A program made the translations under genes and the position numbers. Positions 35,603 to 41,600 of a stretch of 64,000 bases of DNA are shown here, one piece after another; within the stretch, counting starts at the first letter, position 1, and every line of letters begins with the position of its first letter. Below the pieces are notes generated by a model, which was given only the letters and a program-made list of their open reading frames with translations, had not been told where the DNA came from and did not search any database. Source of the DNA: Onchocerca volvulus (Eukaryota > Nematoda > Chromadorea > Rhabditida > Onchocercidae); the NCBI GenBank assembly GCA_000499405.2, contig HG738137.1, positions 6,758,001 through 6,822,000 on the forward strand, read 5' to 3'.

Positions 35603-38600
35603 ATGGCTTATGCACGTCATTACGAATTGACTACCAGGTGATACTTTAAAATTGGAAAGAGTAAAATTAGCGAATCTTCTTTTCACCGTCACATTCACTA
35701 CTGTAGACTGTAAATATATTACTGCGACAAATTTACGATGTCATGCTCAATGTCAGCTGTACCACTCGATTCAAGCCTACTGGCCTTATTTTTCAATACC
35801 AAAGCAATCAGTCTTTTTCAATCTTTTTCCGGCTATTTATCTACTCTTTATTATTACGGTGACCTTGAATTCATAAGAACAGGTTGTTGAATATTTTATT
35901 AATTAACAATAATATTAACATCTGATTTTAGCGGTTTAAATTTCGATCGTTTTGTGGATCAATTTGATGAGCCTACATTGAATAAAATGCGCCAGCAGTA
36001 CTGGACAGCTAAGCAATTAATAAGGAAAAAACTGGGAAAGAAGGTTAATAAGACTTCCCTTGATTGCAAATGATAATGTTGTTGGTCGGAAAAACTTTCA
36101 AGTAACATTTCAAAATGAAAAGCAAAATTTGATTGACAAACTGCATTTTTCAGGAAGATGAACATTTGTTAGCTTCAGATGCGGAATTTGATACTAAATT
36201 AGCTCTCTTTCGATTCGTTCAAGAAACATCTGATCAAATGCTTTGCTGCATCGATAACTATCAACATTATCTTAGCGGTATTTTTTTTAAGTGAATACAG
36301 TCATAATTTTGCAATAGAATTTTCATCAAAAACTTAAAAGTTGTTGGTACCACTATATTTTGCGATCAATCACTGTTATAGAAGAGAATGGCAAAGTTCA
36401 GCGTTCAGCTATTTTATAAGCTACGCTTTATATTTCGAAGTTCTGAAAAAGAGCTGTCATCAAAAGTTGAACTCAGGTAGTTATAGTTATTAAATGTAAC
36501 AAAAATTTTCTTTAGAATTAGTGCAAGTGGAATTTGAATTGAGTAAAATGTTGAAAGATGATGGTGGAGCAGAAATGACAGCTGCCGGTCGTGTTATGGT
36601 CGCTGTCGCCAGGGTTTTGGCCCTTTCAGTGCATCATAGGTTATTTCTGAACATATCTTCTGTCTTTTAAATTCATAATCTCATAACAAGATCACCTTTT
36701 ATCTCCTTTTCAAATAGTGATCAAAATTTTTTTTTTGAAGTAAGTTCGAAGGCTTAGAAAATTTTTCAGTTATTTCGCTCTTTTAAAATTGTCATGAACC
36801 AATCTATATCCATATAAATAAAAATGTAAATTTTCACTCTTAAATCTGTCATAAATAAAACCAGCCTAAAATCCCCGAAAGTTCTTCACCGATTGCTTTC
36901 AAATTTTGATACCACCTTGCATTCGAGTAGGCGCACGTTTTTATATAGACATATCTACTGTTTTCTATATGTCATACATGTCATATATTCTACATGTCAT
37001 GCGGTGACAGGTAAAAGTAAGTGAGCGGATTGAATTTTTTGACCATATCCTACACCTCACTTTAATGAACGGACAGAATTTATTGACCACGCCTTTATGA
37101 TCGGGCAGGGTTTATTGACCATACCTTTATGAGCGGACTGAAACCTATTTTCTGCATTAACGGGAGCAGGCCACGTGCACAGCACACTTAAGTAATTTAT
37201 GGATTACTTTTCTGACTTCGTGTCTTGGTTTGCCTATTTGTCGTAAATGTTCGTTGTTCATTTTGATATAGCGTTTCAAGTTCTTTAACTGATTCGATTG
37301 ATTTGGAACTTTGATACAACGTTGCATTCGAAAAAGCGCGTGGCTTTATATAGATATACCTACTTTTTTTGTACCTCTCACATCTGTGACAAGTAAAAGT
37401 AAGTGAGCGGACTGAATCTATTATCATCCCTACTTTCTGCAAAATGGACGTGGCCTTCAGTATGCAACGCTCAGTACGCCCGGTAAAAACAAACGCGTAT
37501 TGCAGTGCAACGTTCTGTCAAAATTTCGAAGCAAAAGGTAAGAACTTTCGGAGATTTAAGATTTTAAAGAAAGTTTCGGGTCTAATTTTAAATTCATTCA
37601 TAAGATAATTTCGAGAACAGTTGAGGTGCTATCTATCTCATCCAAATAATGCCTCGCAGAAGAACAAACTTAAGTCGTTCTCGCGCAGCGGAAGGAATGC
37701 GACCATTAATTTGCAAATCAAACTGAGAAAGAACGGTATCAGCGAACGAACGGAAAATATAGAGAATGGCTCAAATACGATTGGAGCGATGTGAAGTCAG
37801 ACTTGAAGATGCATGGTTGCGAGTATGGCCGATAGTAAATCGATCTACTCCTGCTTTGTTTGATGTAGAATTGTGTTGTGAAAACACAAGTGGTCTTTTG
37901 TCTTATGTGCAATCAAATGTTCCTAAGCTAATGCTGGAGCAAAAAGGGTATTTATGATTAAATAATGCAAACTTTCAATAACAGAGTTGGAGAAATCTTC
38001 ATAGATGCTCCAGAAGGAATTGGTAAAACATCTCTAATTGGATTGATTAGGACAACAATTAGATCCGAAAATGGCACTTGCATGATCCAAAATAGCTGCG
38101 AAATTGCTGCCGATATTTCTAGGTGGAAAAACTGCTTATTTCACTTTGAAATTGCCATTAAACATGCAATTCACTGAAATTCCCACGTGCAACATTTCCA
38201 AAGCATCCGGCGTGGGGAAAGTATTGCAAAATATAAACTTATTATTTGGGATGAATGCACAATGATTCACAAAAAATCTTGATTGATCATTGCAAGATTT
38301 GCGTAGAAACATCAGACCATTTGGAAACGCATTAATATTGCTTGAAGGAGATTTCAGGCAAACATTACGTATAATTTTTTGATTATGGACGAAATAAATG
38401 CTTACTTGAAATACCCTACTTAATCGCGATATGTAAAGACGTTAAAATTAACTACAAATATGTGTGTACAGCTGCAAAACGATCGATCAGCTAGGATATT
38501 GTTATCTCAATTATTGGAAACTGGGAACGGAAAGACGCCGGTTGCTCTGATTTCAGGACGAATTTCATTGCCCATCAATTTTTCAATTTAATGACGTCAA

Positions 38601-41600
38601 GAGAAAAATTGGTTGAAAAAGTATTTCCCAATATTCAAATAAATTATAAGAATCGCGATTGGCTGAATGAACGTGCTATTCTTGCGGCCAAGAACAAAGA
38701 CGTCGACGAACTTAACAATATCATTCAGTCTAACATTCAAAACGAGGCAATTATATACAATACCGTCAACACTGTTGCGGAAGCAAATGAAGCGGTTAAT
38801 TATCTAACAGAATTTTTGAATTTACTCGATCTACCAGGAATGTCACCGCACGTACTGCGATTGAAAATCAGCGTGCCAATTATCATGTTGCGAAACATCA
38901 GCCAACCAAAACTTTGCAACGGCATGCGCTTGCAGTTAAAAAATTAATGAGCAACGTCGTAGAAGCAAAAATTTTGACAAGAATTTCCAAAGGTGAAGAT
39001 GTCCTCATTTCTGGAATTCCTACAATTCCAACGGATATGCCATTCTACTTTAAGAGACTGGAATTCTTAATTCGATGGGCGTTTGCAACCATCATCAACA
39101 AAGTTCAGGGTCAATCTGTAGAATTGTGCGGTTTAGATATAGAGACGGATTGCTTCTCACATGAACAATTAAATGTTGCGTATTCTAGAATCGGCAAACC
39201 GGATAATCCTTATATCTACATAGACGATGAAACAACAAAAATTACTGTACATCTACGAGCATTGTGAAATTGATTTTCCCCAAAATCAGGAAGAGCGGTT
39301 TTTCTTTCCTTTTTTTTCCATTTAATCAAACTGAGCCACTGCAACGCGTGTATATAAAAAGTGCGCGTATTCGAATGTAACGTTGGATCAAAATTTCAAA
39401 ACAATAGATAAGAATTTTCGGGGATTTTAGATTTTGAACTATTATAGATAAGGCGCGTGTTTAAGAAATTTCAAAGATTTAAGATTTTGAATAAACGAAC
39501 CCTTACATTTTTATTTATATAAACTAGCTGGAGCCGGCCACACGAAGCGTGGTCAGGCACAGCTAGTTTATTAATAAAATCCACAAAACTTAATTGCTAG
39601 ATTACAAATTCGAAATCCTCTATTACGATTCTTTGGTGAGCTTCATGTTTTTACGGAAAGAGCAATTTTGGATTGTGCTAGTACAGTGGATGCTGCGGAA
39701 AAAGCCAGGACTGAATATAGAGGATCATTATTATGGATGAAGAAAACAAGTAAAGAGGTTAATCACTATAAAACCTTCTAGATTGAGATTTTCAAATGTT
39801 AGACAATTTCTACTTGCTGTGAAAGTATATTTTTTTTTATATATTTTCATTGATATATTTTCATTCAAATATTATGAATTCAAATACCTTGCAAATAATC
39901 TGTGTGACTTCTGAAGGTTCTCTATAATCCACTAGCGACTTTTAGTAATTCTCTAATTGGTAATTTATCAAGAGTTCATCGTACTAAAACATTTCTCTTC
40001 CCTTTTGATTCGCCCGTATTTTAGCTTGATCCAGATGCAGAAAATATTTTGGAAAAGTTTCGCACAGCACAGAATGTTGTTAGACGAAATAAGGAGAAAT
40101 TGGATAATTTAAAATTGGATACTCTTCAAAAAGTGGATTTATTGGTCGCTAGTCGCTATAATTTGTTTTCGCAGGTATATTATAGCTAATCTCATTCTCA
40201 AATTTCGAGATAAAAAAGAGATATCTTCTTTTTTTTTTTTCTACTTAAAGCTCAATTTTTACAAAGGTTTGCGAATAGTGGGATGATAGCCCAATCGTTG
40301 AATCATTCAATTCAATTTGTCATTATATGTAGTTATATCATATTATAAATCAAACAGATCAAATGTAGAACTGCAAATAATTTCGAGAAAATACAAGTTC
40401 TACATGTCATATATGTTTCTGTCAGTTTTCCAAACAAACAATAATTTTTAATTGAGAAATGCACTTCTTCAAATGTTCCATTCATTTCATTAGCTGAATT
40501 TATTCTTTTTTGAATATATTCTCTTTTGATTTCGAAAAAAAATGGATACACTTAAACTTTATTTTTTTCCTAAAATTAATTATTATTCTGCACTTTGCTT
40601 AATATTCGGTGTTTGACAAATAATATAAAAAGGCTAAGGATTCTTCAAAATTCTCATCTGCTTCTGTCAGATTGAACCTTTGATCTAACGGTTGATATAA
40701 TGAATGTCTTTCCCAAAGACCGAATGATTTCTGATCAAAATAACTCAGAAAATTGCATATTCTGTTTGATTTGACTTATGATTCAGATTAATAATTTAAT
40801 TTATTGCATTGCTTTGACAGTTGCTGGAATCGTATCAGAAATTATTGTACGGTTACTACGAGCAAACAACGTTGGCATATGAGAAAATTTATGATTTTGT
40901 GTCCAGTCGTAAGCATTACGAATTTGAAGTACTAACGGTACTTATTTCCTAAATTCATACTTTTTAATGACGTAGGATTTAAAGAATTTTTCAAAATATT
41001 GATTCCAGTCAAAAGACTAACCAATTAGATTAATAGTAAATAAATTCTCCAAAAGAAGTGAAATATCTAACGATTTTTGTAGGATTTGATTGAACCTTTA
41101 AAGGAACTTGATTCAGGGAATGATGATCAAATTACAACTGTAGAAAAAGGATCCGAAAGGTTGTCTATTTTATACAATTGAACTTTTGAAAAAGTTTTCT
41201 AGTAAGAATATCATTCACAGAACTGATGAATAAATTTTTATAATTGATCATTGAATATCTTTCAGCTTAATTGAGCTCGATGAATGTGAACAGGAAATGG
41301 AGCAAGTGCTACGAGATTTAGAGAATCTGAATGGACATGATTTATTGGACAATCGAATTGAAAGCCCACTGGGCTTACTAGAAGAAAGTCAAAACGGAGA
41401 CAACGGTGAACCAAGCGATATGCCAAAGCAAACATTAGTATCAGTTGAAGCAGATCCAATAAAAGAAGTATCAAATACCACAGTCCCAGCAATAGCTCCG
41501 CCACCAGGATGGAAATCAAACAGAAAAGGTAACTTCGAGTTTTAATCTTATGAGTTTTGAAATGGAAGATCTCAAGTGTCCGAAAGAATAATAATATTGA

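Follow-up and report, generated by a model that had tools for sequence, protein, structure and literature searches.

A Rep-less Helitron in an intron of an Arfaptin-family gene of Onchocerca volvulus shares its deletion junction with scattered genomic copies

Background

Transposons commonly spread shortened forms of themselves. Helitron1 elements are recognised by TC and CTRR ends, and Helitron2 elements by asymmetric terminal arms and a 5' hairpin, according to the available part of PMC3627910. In the canonical Helitron 10-12 nt separate the hairpin from the 3' end, as stated in the accessible portion of PMC5148889. The lepidopteran Hel-2 unites TC, CTAG, A/T flanks and subterminal inverted repeats in one element (excerpts of PMC4344730), so that ends mixing Helitron1 and Helitron2 marks have a precedent.

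Here we describe an element found in the window, a stretch of 64,000 nt of the Onchocerca volvulus genome (C2:6758001-6822000), and its relatives across the genome searched, which comprised 94.7 Mb in 115 contigs. The element resembles Helitron1 in its 5'-TC, CTAG-3', A/T flanks and 3' hairpin, and in the Rep and PIF1-type helicase of its genome relatives. It differs from Helitron1 in two respects: the hairpin stem contains the terminal CTAG instead of standing 10-12 nt upstream (as in the consulted portion of PMC5148889), and the element bears inverted repeat arms. With Hel-2 it has in common TC, CTAG, A/T flanks, a 3' stem-loop and subterminal inverted repeats, all occurring together; yet the Hel-2 consensus, as far as the excerpts of PMC4344730 go, is of ~250 bp and carries a microsatellite, whereas the window copy keeps a broken helicase. 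A description of this family was not found in the literature searched, which included few papers in full text.

Results and discussion

Host gene and position of the element

The Helitron makes up ~2.76 kb of a host intron of 2,961 nt, running from a GT donor at 36640 to an AG acceptor at 39599-39600 (Table 1). Exons on either side of the element correspond to successive parts of the Arfaptin-like domain (profile positions 2-25 and 24-64 upstream, 107-160 and 160-209 downstream), and the host gene is of the Arfaptin family; the upstream frame 36500..36639 had no Pfam match of its own. The preliminary description had placed the element in intron 4 of ICA69/RIC-19. Its location in an intron of an Arfaptin-domain gene stands; neither that gene name nor the numbering of the exons was confirmed. 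The protein reading HHR, continued across the intron by LQIRNPLLRF, resembles ICA69; a PDB search with the host protein returned no match, and ICA69 is a putative name that fits the Arfaptin domain.

Table 1. Coordinates of the Helitron, its parts and the neighbouring host exons, in window positions
Feature	Position	Strand	Basis or remark
Upstream exon of host gene, open frame	36500..36639	+	Sequence, frame; acceptor not fixed; donor GT 36640
Non-autonomous, Rep-less Helitron	36803..39566 (start 36803 or 36809)	+	Ends and genome copies
5' terminus TC (family alignment) and 5' arm of asymmetric terminal inverted repeat	36809..36832	+	A precedes
Subterminal repeat unit, forward copy	36866..36964	+	
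Further subterminal units	37295-37369 forward; 37484-37568 and 39356-39438 reverse		
N-terminal leader of Rep-helicase frame, broken	37649..37827	+	
Filler of ~10 nt at deletion junction, Rep missing here	37828..37837	+	
Broken PIF1-type helicase	37838..39271	+	Collinear with many copies
3' arm of asymmetric terminal inverted repeat	39503..39520	+	18/18 bases complementary to 36812-36829
3'-terminal hairpin, stem takes in final CTAG	39520..39566	+	T follows
Downstream exon of host gene	39601..39757	+	Arfaptin-like domain positions ~107-160; splice sites read from sequence

Termini

The element had been described as starting with TC after A, from position 36802. TC after A is correct, but 36802 is the flanking A itself, and TC is present twice, at 36803 and again at 36809, each time after A. 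The family 5' core starts TC(T/C)ATATAAATAAAAATG and aligns in the window to 36809. Because the 5' end is AT-rich, a pattern search was required; a genome search with 36802-36870 by itself matched the window alone. The core pattern gave 231 genome matches with at most three mismatches, against one for the reversed control. The hexamer TCTATA, which lies between both window TCs, stands 5' of the core in 18 matches among those listed, the window included, in a list sorted by mismatches that favours TCTATA; this makes a 5' end longer by 6 bp, from 36803, possible. Among motif matches without a preceding hairpin end, the base before the 5' motif was A in 29 of 35, T in four and G in two (background frequency of A, 0.33); once six matches resembling degenerate 3' arms were dropped, A preceded 24 of the remaining 29.

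At the other end, the reported hairpin and CTAG before T were recovered as such, with CTAG at 39563-39566 followed by T. The hairpin predicted in 39519-39570 has an energy of -16.7 kcal/mol (z -6.49; none of 200 shuffles did as well), and its stem covers the terminal CTAG together with four bases of flank. T follows CTAG in all 20 family 3' ends placed by script, or in 18 without the plus-strand ends of L038 and L042, where tandem hairpins were read backwards. The script left 66 anchors without a placed end: behind most of them there is no hairpin start, and these resemble 5' arms read backwards, while some are real 3' ends missed by the pattern, among them that of the window, which was read by eye. 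CTAG is missing from the 3' end of several family copies, e.g. L010, L011 and L026.

Some copies carry a tandem double hairpin at the 3' end. By eye this was seen in 12 of 38 distinct loci (L012, L015, L019, L022, L027, L029, L030, L031, L033, L038, L063 and L072), and by script in nine loci, including L042, which is outside the 38 judged by eye. In L038/L080 (C3:19307103-19310286) and in L042 (C3:9021195-9024719) a CTAG 3' end abuts a 5' end, TCTATATA, and such head-to-tail joins are what rolling-circle read-through would give. L086 has a similar 3'-to-5' arrangement with six bases between the ends.

The 5' arm of the inverted repeat lies at the very end of the Helitron and the 3' arm directly before the hairpin, and both arms are present in many genome copies. 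It should be added that a subterminal unit of ~75 bp occurs in both directions within the Helitron, and that several other copies hold at least two units.

Asymmetric inverted repeats with the 3' arm just 5' of the hairpin are a likeness to Helitron2/Helentron elements (PMC3627910, PMC4067079 and PMC5148889, each in its available parts), and the first of these sources gives the same arrangement for Helitron2; on this ground the element might be assigned to that group and not to canonical Helitrons. The TC and CTAG ends and the A/T instead of T-T target speak against it, as does the 5' end of the window copy, which forms no hairpin (-1.6 kcal/mol, z -1.17, a value reached by 30 of 200 shuffles). 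The eight pieces scanned, all of which come from a broken deletion derivative, gave no endonuclease match. We regard such an assignment as unlikely.

Coding remains and the missing Rep

Within the element, the leader frame runs directly into the helicase, as first reported: an open frame at 37763-37957, 64 aa long, spans the junction. The helicase is broken into stop-to-stop pieces, of which four in eight had a Pfam helicase match; three of these matched PIF1 weakly (E 0.0033-0.06), short of the curated cut-off, the fourth matched the Pif1 2B domain (E 2.5e-13), and the remaining four pieces gave none.

The absence of Rep, also proposed in the preliminary description, was borne out by several searches. 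None of the 150 scored among 209 genome candidates for PF14214 fell in the Helitron. A Rep frame of 519 aa from L041, the longest that we looked at and one that carries HxH and YxxxY motifs, gave nothing better than E 1.9 when compared with the element. Seven Rep-containing proteins, taken from the 120 best of 2,902 matches, were used in tblastn: six aligned to the Helitron, all of them beyond the Rep part, one of which (P0036) also matched weakly at 37486-37650 (E 0.005), and P0003 had no match to the element.

Elsewhere in the genome there are Rep frames that carry both the HxH and the YxxxY motif, and leader, Rep and helicase follow in order in the genome relative L039 and in C38 around it. 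An intact full-length Rep-helicase frame was not seen among the matches scored (150 of 209 Rep candidates). A frame of 4,035 aa was reported among them at C28:22594; we suspect it to be a run of N, because L052 shows all six frames open. L041 has the leader in common with the window copy, but groups with L040 and L044 with good support in the leader tree; its place outside the window's part of that tree suggests that it may represent a sister family. Among the 120 best of 2,902 matches, relatives of the L041 Rep come from insects, spiders, hookworm and frogs.

A deletion junction common to at least eight loci

The Rep deletion is not private to the window copy. A search with 37640-38060 gave 398 first-look candidates, 40 of which were scored, and eight of the 40 are collinear through the junction of leader and helicase (the window, L055, L056, L057, L058, L059, L061 and L068). 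Their 10-nt filler lies within three mismatches of one 10-mer in seven of the eight loci and at five in L059, and it is absent from both flanking sequences in the aligned Rep-type loci. Among the matches listed, six leader loci lack the junction and their leader continues otherwise, and other copies have a different sequence before the helicase. Rep was not found in the seven other junction loci within ~1.5 kb on each side.

A genome search with terminal sequences, suggested earlier as a check and run in part, showed many loci that share the 5' or the 3' end with the window. Among the junction loci, a 5' end after A, with flanks unlike one another by eye, was seen in the window, L056, L057, L059 (where TC reads AC), L061 and L068, and was not found in L055 and L058. 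Both ends are present in the window and L057, and L058 has the 3' arm with a degenerate end, which gives two or three copies with both ends in eight. No 3' end was found in the retrieved stretches of L056, L059, L061 and L068, and in L055 the 3' arm lies at the edge of its stretch. Past the junction, L059 contains an inverted stretch; it may be a recombinant. DNA identity of the window copy to its kin is 77-80% in the coding remains and reaches 86% at the 3' end.

The same junction at eight loci, with a similar filler in seven, indicates that the deleted form most likely spread and was moved in trans. We consider it probable that the window copy is a fossil non-autonomous Helitron from a family in which one founding deletion occurred and the deleted form was then copied in trans; the earlier suggestion of an internally deleted copy once mobilised in trans is thereby supported, the junction being present at eight scattered loci. 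Our confidence is tempered by the small number of copies with both ends and by the position of the window's leader in the tree described below.

Phylogeny of junction copies

A single origin of the junction, when put to the trees, was not supported and was partly contradicted. In the helicase tree one clade of all eight junction loci was rejected (p-AU 0.0046); without L059, a single clade of seven was not rejected (p 0.239). The leader tree, which covered seven of the eight junction rows, neither recovered nor rejected a single clade (p 0.224), and the nearest rows to the window in it, L075, L083, L072, L008 and L005, are all without the junction. The junction label changes four times on the leader tree, against a mean of 6.4 in shuffled data (7 of 500 shuffles as low). 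Mean identity was 0.81 among junction copies, 0.82 between junction copies and others, and 0.85 among the others.

These results give some room to the reading in which the junction founded no lineage, and either arose repeatedly at a hotspot or was passed between full-length copies by recombination after insertion. The rejected clade of eight and the affinity of the window's leader with loci lacking the junction would fit it, and so would the short similar stretches CGATC and CTGC, present in the leader and before the helicase, and the other breakpoints seen in other copies. Separate events would not be expected to leave a filler that is alike in seven of eight loci and lies in neither flank, and with L059 removed one clade is not rejected. 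We hold an origin without a founding lineage to be rather improbable, and recombination between copies may nevertheless have spread the junction.

Other derivatives in the family

A second helicase-only lineage with another breakpoint comprises L062, L064, L067, L074, L079 and L080. In these six loci the helicase is preceded by ~600-900 bp of other sequence that they share; each of the 15 pairs is 79-85% identical there, and no Rep match was obtained in that stretch.

Three further loci (L013, L014 and L020) retain Rep and have the N-terminal part of the helicase deleted at a common breakpoint; counted on the L041 frame, their Rep is kept as far as residue 327-329, and the copies resume near 38745-38752. 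Loss of either half, Rep or helicase, thus occurs in the family, which speaks against a special role of the retained helicase. The idea of a special preference for keeping the helicase is rejected on account of these Rep-retaining loci.

Proposed history of the element

Under the preferred reading of a founding deletion and copying in trans, a deletion in an ancestral Rep-helicase element, sealed with ~10 nt of filler, would have fused the leader to the helicase start, with Rep being lost. The deleted form kept the element ends, so the Rep of fuller relatives could act on it: it would have been nicked, copied by rolling circle and inserted between A and T. One copy entered the host intron on the strand of the gene and decayed, as its broken frames and its divergence from kin show. 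The Helitron is presumably spliced out with the intron and is most likely without function at present.

A present function, in which the 3' end of the Helitron alters splicing of the host gene, could be imagined from the strong predicted hairpin and from the distance to the acceptor exon, 34 bases as originally reported (the next exon runs from 39601). An AG acceptor is retained in the right phase, together with 34 nt of host intron, and the copy is old and broken; on these grounds an effect on splicing seems very unlikely, and the host gene is probably unaffected. It is likewise very unlikely that the family forms a divided transposon, in which helicase-only and Rep-only lineages each multiplied with products complementing one another in trans, and neither would need an intact Rep-helicase fusion.

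Conclusions

The window element is an ordinary, old deletion-derivative Helitron, to which the present analysis adds the common breakpoint and the context of its family. The ends of this family mix marks of Helitron1 and Helitron2, and detectors built for a single type may therefore call such elements poorly. The internal breakpoint provides a heritable marker, by which the movement in trans of a Rep-less Helitron becomes testable in a nematode.
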